Source: Flavobacteriales bacterium UBA1494
Lineage (GTDB): Bacteria > Bacteroidota > Bacteroidia > Flavobacteriales_E > Vicingaceae
DNA length: 64,000 bases
Assembly: GCA_905182175.1 (NCBI GenBank)
Contig: CAJJAT010000008.1
Span: 124,001-188,000 of the forward strand
Direction of reading: 5' to 3'
Shown here: positions 47,739 to 55,094 of the stretch, in pieces
Position numbering within the stretch: position 1 is the first letter of the stretch
Layout of the letters: each line of letters opens with the position of its first letter
The notes under the pieces: generated by a model
Databases searched by the model: none
Told to the model about the DNA's origin: nothing
The model's input: only the letters and a program-made list of their open reading frames with translations
Program-made: the position numbers and the translations under genes

Positions 47739-48281
47739 ATGTACGCAATTGTAGAGATAGCAGGGCAACAATACAAGGTAGAAAAAGATCAACAAATTTT
47801 TGTTCACCGTTTAGAGGGAGAAGAAGGTTCAAAAGTAACTTTTGACAACGTTCTTTTAACTGCTGATGGAGACAAGATTCAAGTTGGCGCCCCAGCTGTA
47901 GAAGGTATATCGGTTTCAGGAACTATTCTGGAACACCTAAAAGGCGATAAAGTAATCGTCTTTAAAAAGAAGAGAAGAAAAGGCTATAAGAAAAGAAATG
48001 GCCATCGTCAGTATATGACGAAACTTGAAATCACCGGCTTTGGCACTTCGACTGGCTCAGCAGCCGCTCCAAAGGCTAAAGCAGCTCCTAAGAAAGCAGA
48101 AGCTGTAAAAGAGGAAGCTCCAAAAGCTGCAAAAGCTCCTAAGAAAGAAGCTGCAAAAGCACCAGCTCCGAAAAAGGAAGAAGCTCCAAAGACAGAGGTT
48201 AAGAAAGCTCCTGCTAAAGCTAAGCCAGCTGCAAAAAAAGCCGATCCTACGAAAGAGGATGATAAAAAAGAAGATAAATAA
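47739..48281 (+). CDS. rplU: 50S ribosomal protein L21 with a long Ala/Lys/Pro tail
   Basis: 180 residues; the family is usually about 103. The core (1-103) begins MYAIVEIAGQQYKVEKDQQI and has KKKRRKGYKKRNGHRQ. Residues 104-180 are a low-complexity tail of A, K, P and E that looks disordered. It precedes rpmA by 55 bases, the universal L21-L27 pair. Confidence 0.97.
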   Translation: MYAIVEIAGQQYKVEKDQQIFVHRLEGEEGSKVTFDNVLLTADGDKIQVGAPAVEGISVSGTILEHLKGDKVIVFKKKRRKGYKKRNGHRQYMTKLEITGFGTSTGSAAAPKAKAAPKKAEAVKEEAPKAAKAPKKEAAKAPAPKKEEAPKTEVKKAPAKAKPAAKKADPTKEDDKKEDK

Positions 48282-48336: not shown

Positions 48337-48600
48337 ATGGCACATAAGAAAGGAGCTGGTAGTTCTAAAAACGGTAGAGATTCGGAAAGTAAACGACTAG
48401 GTGTTAAAATATTTGGTGGTCAAGCTGCCATTGCAGGTAACATTATTATTCGTCAAAGAGGAACAAAGCACCATCCAGGTGAAAATGTTGGAATTGGAAA
48501 AGACCACACTTTGTACGCTTTAACTGATGGTATCGTTACCTTCCAACAAAGAGCTAACAAAAGATCATTTGTTCACGTGAAGCCTATTGCTGCAGCGTAA
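48337..48600 (+). CDS. rpmA: 50S ribosomal protein L27
   Basis: 87 residues. It begins [20 protein letters not shown], with the N-terminal tail that reaches the peptidyl transferase centre, and contains [21 protein letters not shown]. There is no N-terminal extension of the kind that is cleaved in Firmicutes. A terminator follows. Confidence 0.98.
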
Positions 48601-48622: not shown

Positions 48623-48678
48623 AAACCCTAGTCAACATCTAAGTAAATTTAGATTGTTAGCTAGGGTTTTGTTTTTTT
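48623..48678 (+). terminator. Terminator after rpmA
   Basis: AAACCCTAG and CTAGGGTTT pair, with a further inner stem ATCTAA/TTAGAT, followed by TGTTTTTTT. It lies 22 bases past the rpmA stop. Confidence 0.8.
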
Positions 48679-48680
48679 AC

Positions 48681-48957
48681 AACCGACCGTCTCGGTATGC
48701 TTTCATCTCGGTATTTTCTAATTCTTCGAACTACTCGACGACAGCTGCGTTCCGTTTCGAAAGGAGCCTTTAATTACCGACCATCTCGGTGCGCAATCGT
48801 CTTGGTATGTTCTCATTCTTCGAACTACTCGACGACCGCTACGTTCCGTTTCCAAAAGAGCCTTCTTGAAGATACACGAGATCAAATTTTTCGTTAAAAA
48901 GGTCGTTGAGTGCCGAAGACAGGAGGTGTATCCAAACGCCTTTTTGAGTAAATTGCC
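48681..48957. repeat. Structured repeat, left copy of the GIY-YIG flank
   Basis: The copy holds two ~95-base subunits of the form CGACC(A/G)TCTCGGT...TTCGAACTACTCGACGAC...GTTCCGTTTC (48681-48774 and 48776-48875), then a hairpin tail whose arms CGTTAAAAAGG(T)CGTT and AACGCCTTTTT flank GAGTGCCGAAGACAGGAGG. The same order recurs at 49262-49530. Reading the reverse strand gives only spurious peptides. Confidence 0.85.
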
Positions 48958-48960
48958 TTT

Positions 48961-49242
48961 ATGAAATGTCACATGTACATCCTACTCTGCGCAAATGACA
49001 CGTCCTACACTGTCAGAACAAAATACTTAGAACAGCGAATAACACAACACCAAAATGGAGAGAGGGCGAATTACACTAAAAAACATGCTCCGGTTAAATT
49101 AATGTATACGAAAGAATTTGATAGAATTGATTATGCCTTCAATCGTGAAAAGCAAATTCAAAATTGGAGCAAGAAAAAGAAAGCGGCTTTAATTAATGGA
49201 GATATTGAAGAGTTAAAGAAAGCTGCCAAGAAGAAATTCTAA
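48961..49242 (+). CDS. Small GIY-YIG domain protein, altered motif
   Basis: 93 residues. It is the single-domain GIY-YIG type frequent in Bacteroidota: CHMYILLCANDTSYTVRTKYL, LEQRITQHQNGERANYTKKH, and FNREKQIQNWSKKKKAALI. The usual YTGST of the family reads YTVRT here, replacing the glycine of the YIG element by valine, so activity is doubtful, while the conserved Arg (LEQR) and Glu (REKQIQNW) remain. The gene starts three bases after the left repeat and is followed 20 bases after its stop by the right repeat. Function of these small proteins is not established. Confidence 0.85.
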   Translation: MKCHMYILLCANDTSYTVRTKYLEQRITQHQNGERANYTKKHAPVKLMYTKEFDRIDYAFNREKQIQNWSKKKKAALINGDIEELKKAAKKKF

Positions 49243-49261
49243 TCAAGTTTCATCGTGTACT

Positions 49262-49530
49262 TTCGTCTCGGTCATCTCGGTATGTTCTCATTCTTCGAAC
49301 TACTCGACGACCGCTACATTCCGTTTCCAAAATTAGGTCTTTAATTACCGACCATCTCGGTACGCACTCGTCTCGGTATGTTCTCATTCTTCGAACTACT
49401 CGACGACCACTACGTTCCGTTTCCAAAAGAGCCTTCTTGAAGATACTCCAGAGCAATTTTCGTTAAAAAGTTAGTTGAGTGCCGACAACAAGAGGTGTAT
49501 CGAAACGACTTTTTTAACGAAAAATTTGCT
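49262..49530. repeat. Structured repeat, right copy of the GIY-YIG flank
   Basis: It repeats the left copy in the same orientation: two subunits (49262-49346 and 49348-49446) with the TTCGAACTACTCGACGACC core, then a hairpin tail with arms AGCAATTTTCGTTAAAAAG (49452-49470) and CTTTTTTAACGAAAAATTTGCT (49509-49530). The second subunits of the two copies are almost identical, including AGAGCCTTCTTGAAGATAC. Confidence 0.85.
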
Positions 49531-49683
49531 CATTAATACAGTCCTAAACTATTAACTACGAACAAATCAAACCTTAACTATTTCTTAAACCAAAAGCATT
49601 TTATTAAATAAAAAATTAGCCCAAATTTAATCTCTAATGTCATATTAATATGAAATTTAAAAGACCTCTCTTTTTTTATTCTA

Positions 49684-50352
49684 TTGTTAATATTTGCTCT
49701 TTTGGTTACGCAATGTAAAGAAGACGATGATAACAGCAACAGAGGCGGAAATAAAATAATAGATGGAACGCTTCCTCAACCTACAGATACTATTTATGTA
49801 GATAATGAACTAAAAAGATACTATTACTTTGGTGAAGGCAGTTGGTGGGTTTACAAAAGAACAGATACTAATGTGGCAACATATGATACTGCAACTTTAG
49901 TGAAGAGAGAAAGTCGAATTCTATACGAACGAATTGATTATCCAACAGCTTGGGAATATGCATTTACAGGTATATTCCATTCTTATTACAGTTCTCTACC
50001 AAGAACTGTAGAACCTAAATTGCAGGTTGGCACAGCTAATTTAAACAAGCAAATGGATCGAATTAATATATTTTCTCAGAAAACTTTATTTAAAAATGTA
50101 AGTGACTTCTTTTCGCTTCCTATTGACTCCATTTCTATGCTCAAAAAAAGTAATGACAACACTTTTCTAATTGATACAGATAATTTGATCACTTCCAATT
50201 CTGACTTTGCTAATACAATTTATATCAAATCTGGAAGGCTCCCAAGTTTTAGATATGAAATATGGATTTCTAAAAGTGTAGGCCCTACCAAATACTTCAA
50301 CCCTGGAGATAACAGCTCCCGGGAGTTAATCAACTATAAAATTAAGCCTTAA
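49684..50352 (+). CDS. Putative lipoprotein, start region frameshifted
   Basis: The open frame (222 residues from TTG 49684) starts LIFALLVTQCKEDDDN, a lipoprotein cleavage site lacking a basic n-region. An ATG at 49650 in another frame opens MKFKRPLFF; removing one T from the T7 run at 49671-49677 would join both into a complete lipoprotein signal. So either translation uses the TTG or the gene is broken. The body has YYYFGEGSWWVYKRTDT (about 41-57), a pattern shared with the lipoprotein at 51.1 kb (YFDFQPGTYWVYEDSLS), and both end in an xNYxI motif. The paralogs are not recognised as a named family. Confidence 0.7.
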   Translation: MLIFALLVTQCKEDDDNSNRGGNKIIDGTLPQPTDTIYVDNELKRYYYFGEGSWWVYKRTDTNVATYDTATLVKRESRILYERIDYPTAWEYAFTGIFHSYYSSLPRTVEPKLQVGTANLNKQMDRINIFSQKTLFKNVSDFFSLPIDSISMLKKSNDNTFLIDTDNLITSNSDFANTIYIKSGRLPSFRYEIWISKSVGPTKYFNPGDNSSRELINYKIKP

Positions 50353-50383
50353 CTCACTGCCAATTTCAATAAACTCGATTAAC

Positions 50384-50910
50384 ATGAAAAAGTTAGCACT
50401 TCTATTAACTATTATTACTCTATTTTAAGAACCCTATTCCAATACTTGCTGTAATCAACAACTTGATTTAAAATTTACTACTGAGGAGGTAAATACAGCT
50501 TCAAATGATCTTATTGTTCAATATTCTTTCAGTTACCCTGAAGATTCAATTATTACCGTGGACTCTATCTGGTATTCTTTTACCAACAATGAAGGACTTG
50601 CCGTTAGTGAAAACAGATTAGTATTTGGAGAATTAATCGAAGAGTAGCCCACTCAACGACAAATTTATATCTCTTTTGATCATGAGAGTACCCGAACAAC
50701 GAAGACCCTGCAAATGCAGGAGTAAAGATAGATAGCCAATTAGATTCGTTGCTTTTTGAGAAAACAACATTTACAAAAGTAAAAATCATATCAAATTTTA
50801 CTAGAAAAAATGGCTTACCGAAGGATACGTTTAGAACTTGGTGGGCAAAAGGTATAGGAGTCATCAGAAAAGAAATGGAAGATGGTAGGGTTTTCAGATT
50901 AAAGCGTTAA
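50384..50910 (+). pseudogene. Broken paralog of the neighbouring lipoproteins
   Basis: ATG 50384 opens MKKLALLLTIITLF, then TAA; the frame continues with CCNQQLDLKFTTEEVNTAS and SIWYSFTNNEGLAVSENRL to TAG at about 50645. From about 50697 another frame gives DPANAGVKIDSQLDSLLFEK and ends TWWAKGIGVIRKEMEDGRV, FRLKR, TAA at 50908. That ending matches the SILWWAKDVGLIRIEFESGR end of the 51.1 kb lipoprotein. Two stops and one frameshift prevent a full product. Confidence 0.75.
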
Positions 50911-51077
50911 GAAATGATAAAATAGCTCAAACTTCAAAGAATTAAAAAATTTATTTAACCAACCTAAAATCTAATTAGACGGCAGTAAAAACCCTTTAAT
51001 GGAACAGAAATAGCACTACCGCCTAGTTATCATGGCATTAATTTACTGCTTTTGTTATATTACTATATAACAAGACT

Positions 51078-51707
51078 ATGAACAAAACATTTACTTTAAC
51101 TCTGCTTTTAATGGCATTTATTATTGGTTGCATACCAGACGATGAACCCTTATATAACTGCGAAGACCCAATTCCTGAATACAGATTAGACGAAGACTTT
51201 AAGGCCTATTTTGACTTTCAGCCGGGCACGTATTGGGTTTATGAGGACTCTTTAAGTGGTGAATCCGATTCTGTCTATATTATTTCGAATGAACGTGAAA
51301 TAAAGGAAGGAATTTCGGGTAGAGGATGTGATGCCAGATATAACAATGAAACTTTCTTTATAGAACAAATAAAAAGCGACACTATTGAGAAGTTAACCGC
51401 TTCAACGACTTTTACTGGAAGAGGATATATGTTTATAAATTCAAGCCTGACTGGATCTCACTTCTACATGAAAAAAAATGGACAATCTCCCGGAAAAAAC
51501 AACATACACAACCTAGCAGAGATTGAGGAAATAAGTTTTAACAATATAAATTTTAAAGATATAATAATACTTCAAAAAACGACTAGAGTTAATTTGCAAG
51601 ATATTGAGACATCCATTCTCTGGTGGGCAAAAGATGTTGGGCTAATCCGTATAGAATTTGAAAGCGGCAGAGTACAACGAATTAAAAATTACAATATAAT
51701 TAAATAA
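51078..51707 (+). CDS. Putative lipoprotein of a local paralogous family
   Basis: 209 residues, intact. The lipoprotein signal MNKTFTLTLLLMAFIIGC places Cys18 as lipid site. KAYFDFQPGTYWVYEDSLSG (about 44-63) and the C-terminal WWAKDVGLIRIEFESGRV match the genes at 49.7 and 50.4 kb. The protein is mostly beta by its alternating pattern. No named domain recognised. It is followed by a broken T9SS gene after six bases. Confidence 0.8.
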   Translation: MNKTFTLTLLLMAFIIGCIPDDEPLYNCEDPIPEYRLDEDFKAYFDFQPGTYWVYEDSLSGESDSVYIISNEREIKEGISGRGCDARYNNETFFIEQIKSDTIEKLTASTTFTGRGYMFINSSLTGSHFYMKKNGQSPGKNNIHNLAEIEEISFNNINFKDIIILQKTTRVNLQDIETSILWWAKDVGLIRIEFESGRVQRIKNYNIIK

Positions 51708-51713
51708 CTAACT

Positions 51714-53130
51714 ATGAAAAAGCTAATATCAATAACGGGAATACTACTATGCAATTTAATATTGTTCGCGCAAAGTGGTTCTGTGCCGTATGGAATTCAA
51801 TTCGAAAATCTTGAAACTGAAAATGCAGAGGGCTCTTTTAGTGTTTCCTTTACGCTCAATTTCTTTGATAATGTCACAATAAACAATGACAATTTCACCA
51901 TAACTGCACCTGATGGATGGGTGGTAAGTACCAATTCTGCAAAGTTAGTTGGTGTGCATCAAAATCAAGAAACTTACAATGACACCTTAGCTATCACCTA
52001 CCCCTCTAATTCCTTCTACTACCATTCAAGCTAACTAAAACGAATGGCAATTTACCTCTTTTCCTCCTTTCCGAAGTGTGGATTCTAATCTAAGTCAATA
52101 TTATCAAGATGCTTCAAGCAATTGGATTAACGCACCCTTAACCATTCAATATTTTCATATCTAGATATTTAATTCGCTCTCATGTTTTGAAGCTATCTCT
52201 GACCCGTCCACTTACGATCCTTTTTCAGATGGAGGAAGAATAAGTAATTGCCCATCTTGTCCGCTAATAAATACACCAAACTTCGAAAGCATTTCCTTAA
52301 ATGGTGCTTTGATTGATATACAAAACACCTTGCAAGGTGAAGAGGTAAACTTATCTCTAGAGTTTGGAAGATTGGCTGAAATAATTACAATTGAAGTTGA
52401 AGAGCACTCGTCAAATGTTATTTTGATTCAAGCTTCTGCTTATGATAAGCTAAAAGAGGTTTACGGAGAAATGATAGTGAATGATGAAATTAATGTTAGC
52501 TCTACCGCGAATATTCCTCAAATTAACGAGTTTGCACAAAATTTAATTGAGGTAATTAATTTGAGAGCAAGCAGACTTTTCTTCAACGAAATTGAAAGGT
52601 ACGATGAATTTGTATTCCATAACATAGACAAAGCGATGCTATTTCATGGTGTTCGAAGAAATGATTTAGCCCTTGCAACTTTAGCTAATTTAAAATATAC
52701 AGCTCCTGCTAATTAATTAGAACGAGTAAATAGTCTTGAATGTTATATTCTGAAAGAAGAACTACTACTCAACAACGAGATTAGTGATTCAGAATATGAA
52801 AACCTGAAAGAATACTGTAAAATCAATGCTACCCATATTGGAGAAATCCCTTCTGCCGAAGAGAATTCAAATGAAGATGCATTTGACGTTAACATATTTC
52901 CCAATCCAACAGAAGGGACTTTAACTTTACGGCAGAAGGTTTTAATGGTGAAACCCTTGAAATTCGAATATTCAATTCAAGTAGTCAGTTAGTTTATGAA
53001 AATGAATTTAACAGTTCTAATAGCTAGGTCAACTAACAATTAGAATTAAGTGGATTAACGAGTGGCATATATAACATGCATTTAATCTCTAACGATGCAG
53101 TTGTGGTAAAGCAAATCATTCTTCAATTAT
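51714..53130 (+). pseudogene. Broken T9SS-sorted surface protein gene
   Basis: The first frame gives a signal peptide (MKKLISITGILLCNLILFAQ) and a beta domain to a stop at 52032. After a +1 shift the frame continues with SVDSNLSQYYQDASSNWINA, a TAG at 52162, then FEAISDPSTYDPFSDGGRIS, and the segment MIDIQNTLQGEEVNLSLEFG to TAA at 52714. It continues as LECYILKEELLLNNEISDSE and NIFPNPTEGTLTL, then shifts again into AEGFNGETLEIRIFNSSSQ and LSGLTSGIYNMHLIS. The end is a type A sorting domain. At least four stops and two shifts make it a remnant. Confidence 0.8.
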
Positions 53131-53272
53131 ACTTACTGTTTAAACTTCTAATAATTCTTAAAAGAGTCACAATCTTGTATTGTAACTCTTTTTCTTTTAC
53201 CAAAATATCCCATTGTCTCTACCTACTGATTGTGCAAACTATATTACCTTTACGGGACGAATAAAAAAGAAC

Positions 53273-54544
53273 ATGTTACAAATTCCTTACCTTAGAGAAA
53301 ACCGAGATTTAGTAATTGAACGCTACACCAGAAGAAACTTGGATGCAGCCGAAACTATTGATCAAATCATAACGCTAGACAACCAACGAAAAGCTACGCA
53401 GCAATCGATGGACCAAGATTTAGCCGAAGGAAATAGATTGGCAAAAGAAATTGGCGATTTGTACAAAAGCGGAAAAGCTGCGGAAGCAAACGAGCTAAAA
53501 CAAAAAACGAAGGTTTTAAAGGAGAAGAGTAACGAAGAGAAGACAAAACTTCAAGAAATTGAAGAAGCTCAATTAAACCTTTTATATCAGCTACCAAACG
53601 TTCCCAATGCAATTGTACCTAATGGGAAATCCGATGCAGACAATAAAATTATTTCGGAACACGGAACAAAAGCCAAATTTGATTTTGATGCAGTCCCTCA
53701 TTGGGATTTAGCTAAAAAATATGGCTTAATTGATTTTGAAGTAGGTGTTAAAATTGCAGGAGCGGGTTTTCCTGTTTACATGGGCAAAGGAGCAAAACTA
53801 CAAAGAGCATTAATTAACTTCTTTTTAGATGAAGCTGAAAACGCAGGCTATAGCGAAGTAGTTCCTCCACATTTGGTAAACGAAGCATCAGGTTATGGCA
53901 CAGGACAACTTCCTGACAAGGAAGGGCAAATGTATCACGTAGGAGTTGATGACTTATACTTAATACCAACCGCAGAAGTTCCCATAACCAATATTTACAG
54001 AGATGTAATTGTAAAGGAAAGTGACTTTCCTATTAAAAATTCTGGTTACACTCCTTGCTTTAGGAGAGAAGCCGGCTCTTATGGAAAAGATGTTAGAGGT
54101 TTAAATCGATTACATCAGTTTGATAAGGTAGAAATTGTACAAATTCAGCACCCAGATAAATCTTATGAAGCATTGGATGGCATGGTAAAACATGTAGCTT
54201 CTATTTTAGAAAAATTAGGCTTACAATACCGAATCGCATTGCTTTGCGGTGGCGACTTAGGTTTTACTGCCGCCATTACATATGATTTTGAAGTATATTC
54301 TGCAGCACAAAACCGCTGGCTAGAGGTTAGTTCTGTATCCAACTTCGAAACATTTCAGGCCAACCGCTTAAAATTGCGTTTTAAAAATGAGGAAGGAAAA
54401 ACTGAATTGGCACACACTTTAAACGGAAGCGCATTAGCGTTGCCTAGGATTATGGCAGCCTTGCTAGAAAATTATCAAGTAACTGATGGAATTAATATTC
54501 CTGAAGTATTGGTACCTTACACTAAATTTGACAAAATAGATTGA
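53273..54544 (+). CDS. serS: Serine-tRNA ligase
   Basis: 423 residues from ATG 53273; the reading from 53213 adds 20 residues unlike the family. The N-terminal coiled-coil arm (about 25-105) is followed by the class II core, with FRREAGSYGKDVRGLNRLHQ (motif 2) and NGSALALPRIMAALLENYQ (motif 3). Charges tRNA-Ser and tRNA-Sec. First of a five-gene run with short gaps. Confidence 0.97.
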   Translation: MLQIPYLRENRDLVIERYTRRNLDAAETIDQIITLDNQRKATQQSMDQDLAEGNRLAKEIGDLYKSGKAAEANELKQKTKVLKEKSNEEKTKLQEIEEAQLNLLYQLPNVPNAIVPNGKSDADNKIISEHGTKAKFDFDAVPHWDLAKKYGLIDFEVGVKIAGAGFPVYMGKGAKLQRALINFFLDEAENAGYSEVVPPHLVNEASGYGTGQLPDKEGQMYHVGVDDLYLIPTAEVPITNIYRDVIVKESDFPIKNSGYTPCFRREAGSYGKDVRGLNRLHQFDKVEIVQIQHPDKSYEALDGMVKHVASILEKLGLQYRIALLCGGDLGFTAAITYDFEVYSAAQNRWLEVSSVSNFETFQANRLKLRFKNEEGKTELAHTLNGSALALPRIMAALLENYQVTDGINIPEVLVPYTKFDKID

Positions 54545-54545
54545 C

Positions 54546-55094
54546 ATGAGAAAAAGTATTTTATTTTTATCAGTAATTGGATTATTCTTAACAGCTTGCG
54601 GTCCTAAAATAAACTCAGATCAACAAAAAAGTCTTTCCACCTTAACTTCTCAAGTAGATTCGGTTACATCCATAATAAATGCTATGGATAGTGTTGAATT
54701 GATGACGTTAACGGACAACTTTTTTAATCGTAAAAACTTCTTACAAAAGCAAATGATAGATACGCTCGAGCCAGAAATTATTTTTAAGCTAGATGGTTTT
54801 ATTCAGCTTAGAAAAACAATGGGTTTTATAAGAGGAGAATACGGAGTCATTAAAAAGGAAGCAAATATTATGAAAGACCAAATGGTTGACTTGAACCATG
54901 ATGTTTCTGAAAGATTAATTGAAGAAAAACAGTTTGGACGTTATTATAGTTTGGAAAAAGCAAATTACGACGAATTAAAATTAGCCTCTATTCAATTAAA
55001 AAGAGCAGTTGAAGTAAGCACAAAAGAATACAACGAAAGAATAGTAGCTGTTGACTCAGTTATTGATGCATACAAAACGAAAATAGATGAATAA
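54546..55094 (+). CDS. Putative lipoprotein
   Basis: 182 residues including the start; the signal MRKSILFLSVIGLFLTACG places Cys18 as lipid site. The mature part is helical with charged repeats (TSQVDSVTSIINAMDS, FGRYYSLEKANYDELKLAS), likely coiled coil, and has no known domain. It starts one base after serS and its end overlaps the TPR gene by eight bases, so it is translated with both. Confidence 0.78.
   Translation: MRKSILFLSVIGLFLTACGPKINSDQQKSLSTLTSQVDSVTSIINAMDSVELMTLTDNFFNRKNFLQKQMIDTLEPEIIFKLDGFIQLRKTMGFIRGEYGVIKKEANIMKDQMVDLNHDVSERLIEEKQFGRYYSLEKANYDELKLASIQLKRAVEVSTKEYNERIVAVDSVIDAYKTKIDE

Follow-up and report, generated by a model that had tools for sequence, protein, structure and literature searches.

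The window, a stretch of 64,000 nucleotides from Flavobacteriales bacterium UBA1494, contains a small GIY-YIG nuclease gene framed by direct repeats. We read this locus, with a probability of about 60%, as the remnant of a two-part selfish element consisting of a small GIY-YIG nuclease and its cognate palindrome, resembling the RAYT/REP systems but built on an unrelated enzyme. The association of small GIY-YIG genes with clade-typical repeats is well supported; that the nuclease cuts the palindromes and mobilises them we infer. The two-part reading is supported by the enrichment of framing repeats, the crowding of a palindromic motif (motif I) at the gene, motifs that differ between clades and CGTC-tagged hairpins at a sister clade (clade II). 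It is also supported by one orthologous junction that shows empty, solo-repeat and repeat-gene-repeat states, and by matches to TTCGRNNNNCTCARCCACC in the window together with the lack of a Y1 transposase match in its genome. It is weakened because the window repeat is private to its locus, many loci are unframed and the clade specificity is partial, and because the motifs were counted on the loci from which they came and Y1 matches occur in all eight other genomes checked.

In the proposed mechanism a stand-alone GIY-YIG nuclease would recognise and cut a palindrome hairpin typical of its clade. Repair of the break would spread repeats and cassettes to new sites by homing-like copying. Recombination between the flanking direct copies would either multiply the cassette in tandem or delete it to a solo repeat.

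The window locus and its genome

Two genes that we take, from their proteins, to be rplU and rpmA (L27) are followed by a terminator-like hairpin and then by repeat, gene and repeat; the conserved gene to the right is presumably serS (Table 1). The two direct repeat copies around the GIY-YIG gene lie where the preliminary description had placed them. The blocks align at 89% identity over 243 bases (BLAST), and both consist of two subunits with the core TTCGAACTACTCGACGACC followed by a tail, in identical order and on the same strand. The core is found four times in the window, once with a mismatch, against a chance expectation of 0.00 (up to 3 mismatches, window). About 3.7 kb with extra ORFs (49530-53236) lies between the cassette and the next conserved gene.

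Table 1. Features of the window locus (window positions)
Feature	Position	Strand	Basis and remarks
Upstream repeat block, two ~95-base subunits and tail	48681..48957	+	Repeat families, BLAST; part aligned to downstream copy, 48703-48945
GIY-YIG gene, 93 codons	48961..49242	+	ORF, Pfam; YTV instead of YTG, R26 and E63 kept (window-protein numbering)
Downstream repeat block	49262..49530	+	89% identity to upstream block across 49272-49514
Repeat core copy 1	48725..48743	+	1 mismatch
Repeat core copy 2	48819..48837	+	Exact; 2 mismatches from TTCGRNNNNCTCARCCACC
Repeat core copy 3	49294..49312	+	Exact
Repeat core copy 4	49390..49408	+	Exact
Hairpin tail, downstream copy	49452..49530	+	Fold against shuffles
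rpmA (L27), conserved left neighbour (presumed)	48337..48600	+	Terminator-like hairpin 48623-48669 comes next
Start of conserved right neighbour (presumably serS)	53236..54565	+	End is the alignment end, not the gene end

The earlier assignment of the 93-residue product to the GIY-YIG nucleases is confirmed by Pfam (PF01541, E 5.6e-13, 49.4 bits against a cut-off of 22.6). The Arg and Glu of the conserved motifs are kept. In the second GIY-YIG motif the window protein has YTV and the aligned relatives YTG, whose glycine is invariant across the nine relatives of alignment A2; this makes the activity of the window protein doubtful. The gene would be a member of the GIY-YIG superfamily by descent, possibly inactive, and looks decayed by its change of the YIG glycine to valine. 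The repeat had also been called structured, which holds for one part of it. The downstream tail (49446-49530) folds at -16.5 kcal/mol (z -4.55), a value reached by none of 200 shuffles. The folds of the upstream tail (z -1.01, 30/200 as good) and of the two of four subunits that were folded (z -1.00 and -0.95) are at shuffle level, and the downstream tail is thus the only one of the four window stretches folded with a hairpin beyond chance.

In the genome of the window (G000) the repeat is private to its locus. All four occurrences of the core at up to 1 mismatch are at the window locus. Two further places have 3 mismatches and both look coding by eye; a hand estimate assuming even base composition gives 0.7 such matches by chance in 3.3 Mb, and the backwards-pattern control gave 0. 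BLAST of the whole block against G000 returned just the two copies and a 28-base opposite-strand match inside the downstream one, and a dispersed family was rejected on these searches. Among 24 relatives the only matches were two of 32 bases (E ~3e-4) in G002 and G003. The many dispersed genome copies typical of REPs are therefore lacking for the window repeat in G000, and the proposal that the cassette is amplifying in this genome is unsupported because the repeat is confined to this locus. In this genome the element has probably lost its activity. A repeat found nowhere else had been named in advance as grounds against pairing of repeat and gene; that is the situation of the window copy, but the general claim survives, since such genes own differing repeats and relatives still support the pairing.

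A query with the window protein found three other homologues in G000, two with an internal stop and one matching residues 1-68 of 93 only. These four loci were examined; PF01541 has 7 matches in G000 among those listed. All four have direct repeats on both sides, and the repeat sequence differs at each. At one of the others a 24-base repeat core extends to 11 places at up to 3 mismatches, five of them clustered ~4.4 kb away from the gene, with four more on different contigs. At another, six matches of the repeat core are local, and the remaining four, found elsewhere, are weaker. Separately, CTTCGACTATCGCTCAGTGTGACA-type repeats occur several times in an apparent coding region of G000 (L121, contig C12, about 1240-1482).

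The orthologous junction was compared across relatives. In G004 and G002, 88 and 107 unaligned bases, respectively, separate rpmA and its terminator from the next conserved gene, and the junction lacks both the repeat and the GIY-YIG gene. The 311-base junction of G001 contains a single degenerate repeat unit (36 bases 89% identical to the window, with a tail that by eye is similarly composed) and lacks the GIY-YIG gene. The repeat-gene-repeat arrangement of the window, and the 3.7 kb beyond it, are absent at this junction in all three; rpmA gave no match in G003 and G005. The right flank of the site differs between relatives, and the repeats at the window locus are direct. The solo state of G001 may reflect gene loss by recombination between direct copies, or a solo insertion that came first. 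The empty junctions and the solo repeat thus indicate the mobility that the preliminary description had proposed, the movement itself being what we infer from them. At the tail of rplU (48047-48065) the window reads TTCGACTGGCTCAGCAGCC, which differs from the clade I repeat core at two positions. A similar stretch is present in the rplU of G001 and, by eye, absent in that of G002. The stretch may be what is left of a repeat within a gene for a ribosomal protein.

Framing and palindromes among relatives

Framing was scored as the best Smith-Waterman local alignment between the 600 bases before and the 600 bases after the gene. The first set came from 41 genomes (G000 and 40 relatives), all with PF01541 matches, UvrC included. 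From the matches listed, 30 automatic loci and 60 fetched regions were taken; the UvrC regions (L103-L105), UvrC-type long frames and further stand-alone matches, several near contig ends, were left out. Removal of duplicates gave 86 stand-alone loci, of which 82 had enough flank for scoring and 4 did not. The direct-repeat score is at least 30 in 52/82 and at least 50 in 40/82 GIY-YIG loci, against 4/111 and 3/111 for control ORFs of the same loci, a conservative control because 109 of the 111 lie near the GIY-YIG locus. Scores exceed the largest of 60 dinucleotide shuffles per locus in 53/82 loci for direct and 30/82 for inverted repeats. Several of the stand-alone GIY-YIG matches listed begin no more than a few hundred bases into their contig, a placement that assemblies broken at repeats or arrays would produce.

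A second set consisted of the best 80 of 577 named relatives and samples the clade of the window, since that clade served as query; 74 had flanks for the repeat test and 6 did not. A common length was used to place the gene end in most of these 80 loci, and the set may share species with the first. It spans Bacteroidota, Cyanobacteria, Proteobacteria, Ignavibacteriales, Cloacimonadota, a planctomycete (Scalindua), Calditrichia and Fibrobacter, with phylum labels that follow the record titles (many records are MAGs). The score reaches at least 30 in 39/74 and at least 50 in 29/74 of these loci, against 4/110 and 2/110 for ORFs and 8/237 and 3/237 for random positions. Loci without a repeat (score under 30) number 30/82 in the first set and 35/74 in the named set.

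A tree of the 86 proteins separates repeat-framed from tRNA/tmRNA-linked rows with two label changes over 63 rows, with 19 rows without a repeat and 4 with short flanks set aside. Taken by itself, the repeat label changes 11 times on the tree; shuffled labels change 26 times on average, and 0 of 500 shuffles were as low. The tree was made by a quick method on few columns and has many weak forks, and the lists of clades I, II and III were drawn from it by hand. One fixed repeat common to the group (CGTCATTGCGAGG..) was considered and rejected, being present in 7/41 genomes and not shared; it has 20 copies in G033 and 3 around the gene in G012.

Each clade has its own tendency. Motif I, TTCGRN{4,5}CTCA on either strand, lies within 600 bp of the gene in 76/80 named loci, with at least 2 copies in 71, and its density drops from 4.18 per kb within 250 bp to 0.03-0.34 at distances above 750 bp. 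The strict motif TTCGRCTNCGCTCA lies within 600 bp in 55/80 named loci, at 2.89 per kb within 250 bp against 0-0.20 beyond 750 bp and 0.0 per kb under a Markov model. The majority consensus of 249 strict copies is GGTGGCTTCGACTCCGCTCAGCCACC. The arms are complementary at 5 or 6 of 7 positions in 202/249 copies, a count made without shuffles in which the motif itself makes one position always pair and one never. Neighbouring strict copies within 150 bp are inverted in 88 cases and in the same orientation in 37.

Densities per kb near and far from the gene, for motifs derived from the very loci on which they were counted, are as follows. Motif I has 3.49/0.14 in named clade I, 2.78/0.22 in first-set clade I (near in 5/9 loci), 0.11/0.02 in clade II, 0.76/0.08 in clade III (5/11) and 0.19/0.04 at tRNA/tmRNA loci (5/31). 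Motif II has 2.28/0.11 in clade II (12/23), 0.02/0.03 in named clade I and 0.23/0.08 in clade III, and does not occur in tRNA-clade loci. Motif III has 1.59/0.20 in clade III (7/11), 0.36/0.00 in clade II (3/23) and 0.04/0.02 in named clade I, and none near tRNA-clade genes. The clades thus differ in their palindromes, I from II cleanly and I from III in part, and the specificity is partial.

Over whole genomes the strict motif has 12 to 142 copies in eight named genomes. Copies within 2 kb of a clade I gene are 6/18 in G041, at least 10/37 in G042, 8/26 in G043, 5/21 in G045, 5/39 in G046 and 11/12 in G047. Together at least 45/153 copies fall within 2 kb of the gene, in about 25 kb of 30 Mb; the count was made by hand for these six genomes among the rows listed (34 of the 37 copies in G042), the other two genomes being G044 (142 copies) and G048 (22). 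The copies are strongly concentrated at the gene, yet most are elsewhere, many as inverted pairs. Among those listed there are also motif clusters without a GIY-YIG match, for example on G046 contig 8 and G042 contig 118.

The window cores suggest kinship with the clade I palindrome. Three of them have 2 mismatches to TTCGRNNNNCTCARCCACC and the remaining core has three. At 2 mismatches this pattern has 4 matches in the window (three cores and one inside rplU) against 0.11 by chance, a resemblance that we rate as suggestive, as the pattern was written after the likeness was seen. Exact motif I is not found at the window's own locus, and TTCGRNNNNCTCA with one mismatch has 27 matches in the window against 23 by chance, which is chance level. 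Free alignment of the upstream block with the clade I consensus is weak, with 4/200 shuffles as good. By eye neither the window core nor the clade I consensus has a GTAG end tag. The preliminary description had likened the repeat and the nuclease gene to REPs with their helper genes, as partners that travel together; the framing and palindromes of relatives support such a partnership, whereas amplification in this genome is unsupported.

CGTC-tagged hairpins and tRNA genes

Clade II, found in Proteobacteria and Bacteroidota, is often framed by CGTC-tagged hairpins. These were defined, after published CGTC REPs, as any base followed by GTCAT, six more stem bases, a loop of 3-8 bases, a complementary arm with at most 1 mismatch, and AT. 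They occur near the gene in 6/23 first-set clade II loci (19 copies near and 0 far) and 1/80 named clade I loci. None is near the gene in the 11 clade III loci, the 9 first-set clade I loci (window included) or the 31 tRNA/tmRNA loci. In a plasmid collection 31 records have a clade II relative and 15 were examined. Near hairpins are present in 9/15 (38 copies at 1.52 per kb, with Neisseria contributing 13), and far ones number 12 (0.19 per kb, 10 in Photobacterium). The nine loci with near hairpins come from Azospirillum, three Shinella, Neisseria, Aeromonas, Photobacterium, Neorhizobium and Rhizobium CIAT894. In five (two Shinella, Aeromonas, Neorhizobium and Rhizobium CIAT894) the hairpins closest to the gene on its two sides are in inverted orientation, at distances of 11 to 93 bases from the GIY-YIG match, and Azospirillum has an inverted hairpin pair on each side of the gene. 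The hairpins are absent in 6/15 plasmid loci, both Sinorhizobium loci included. On plasmid AZO_p3 of Azospirillum lipoferum (L229) the clade II gene and its CGTC hairpins lie between sufB and sufC.

According to Di Nocera et al. 2013 (PMC3733652), CGTC REPs occur in five phyla, Proteobacteria and Bacteroidetes among them, with A. lipoferum, S. meliloti and Neisseriae as named hosts, and include Neisseria dRS3 and Rickettsia RPE-4/RPE-6. They are described there as apparently without a dedicated transposase, in passages that name no partner gene. The GIY-YIG gene may be this partner; the S. meliloti locus is without such hairpins. By title or the start of the abstract, no literature was found that ties small bacterial GIY-YIG genes to REPs, in a search with most subscription journals and bioRxiv outside its scope. 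REPs are common bacterial repeats, and a GIY-YIG partner, if true, would make the spread of CGTC REPs testable with one small protein and one hairpin. It would be a second, independently evolved solution to REP spread, and would give a purpose to many small genes annotated merely as 'GIY-YIG nuclease family protein'.

Another clade is linked to tRNA genes, and 29/82 loci have a tRNA or tmRNA gene no more than 300 bp away. Subclades of the tree tend to share the tRNA type. A second, mostly partial, tRNA copy nearby scores at least 40 in 21/26 tRNA-linked loci, a figure without shuffle control, and lies across the gene in many, not all, of them. Three loci (L046, L047 and L048, in G015 and G018) are tandem arrays of near-identical GIY-YIG genes; TRF gives 10.2 copies with a period of 457 for one array, and 7.8 and 4.6 copies with a period of 379 for the other two. 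The array units carry part of the neighbouring tRNA gene in which, as we read it, other sequence has taken the place of the anticodon part. At even odds, small stand-alone GIY-YIG nucleases would form a broad, unrecognised selfish class, the GIY-YIG counterpart of the RAYTs, in which the target of each clade is a palindrome (CGTC REPs included) or a tRNA or tmRNA gene and the window copy is dying.

Rival readings and known systems

The gene could instead encode a host-serving, structure-specific nuclease (UPF0213/YhbQ/Slx1-like) that processes repeat hairpins, the gene needing or tolerating the repeats and nothing being mobile. The solved relatives reached through alignment A2 are indeed UPF0213 proteins (1zg2, E 1.3e-20; 1ywl, E 2.6e-16), and a review (PMC7017083) groups E. 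coli YhbQ in one family with Slx1, a structure-selective nuclease. Patchy, multi-copy and sometimes broken genes, tandem arrays, empty and solo sites and clade-typical palindromes suit a selfish element better, and we consider a host function unlikely. Slightly less likely still is that another enzyme, a RAYT or other transposase acting in trans, moves the repeats and the GIY-YIG gene is a passenger. Y1_Tnp matches are present in 8/9 genomes checked, with one motif I copy about 0.8 kb from such a match in G043 and one about 2.5 kb from it in G041. The exception is the window genome, where none of 9 candidates scored matches PF01797 in an assembly that is 96% complete, so no RAYT is needed there. 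The palindrome also tends to change with the GIY-YIG clade, which speaks against a passenger, and Di Nocera et al. (PMC3733652) report that none of the tyrosine transposase genes in CGTC-positive species has CGTC repeats at its flanks.

Local duplication of a segment with a pre-existing repeat around a resident gene, with no link between the two, would explain why the window copies are direct, adjacent and private to their locus. We regard it as very improbable, since all four G000 loci have direct repeats on both sides with four different sequences, and the enrichment over other ORFs of the same loci and the crowding of motif I contradict it as a general account. The two-part element is thus preferred over all three.

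Its closest likeness is to the REP/RAYT systems (REPtrons, BIMEs), with short palindromes, often in inverted pairs, crowded at one gene and also present elsewhere, and with different enzymes paired with different palindromes (for RAYTs, PMC3733652). The enzyme here is GIY-YIG and not a Y1 (HUH) tyrosine transposase, and the copies at the window locus are direct and longer, with no dispersed copies found and no GTAG tag by eye. REP-like palindromes are short and able to fold; the arms of the clade I consensus are complementary, and of the window folds the downstream tail alone exceeds shuffles. CGTC REPs carry a CGTC/TGTC tag, an AT stem foot and a loop of 4-5 bases. The clade II-adjacent hairpins share with them the CGTC tag, an AT stem foot, a short loop and often a CCA tail, but they pair with the sister clade and not with the window's own repeat. 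Insertion sequences and MITEs have terminal inverted repeats and target duplications; the repeats at the window locus are direct, and its right flank differs between relatives. The UPF0213/YhbQ/YazA proteins are alike in size, single domain and sequence (1zg2, alignment A2); their genes are not known to have repeats beside them. GIY-YIG homing endonucleases are free-standing, as the seg genes of phage T4, or intron-borne, as I-TevI. The window gene was not seen to lie inside an intron and is a nuclease domain alone, flanked by repeats, but it shares with them the GIY-YIG domain and the habit of small, multi-copy, patchily distributed genes.
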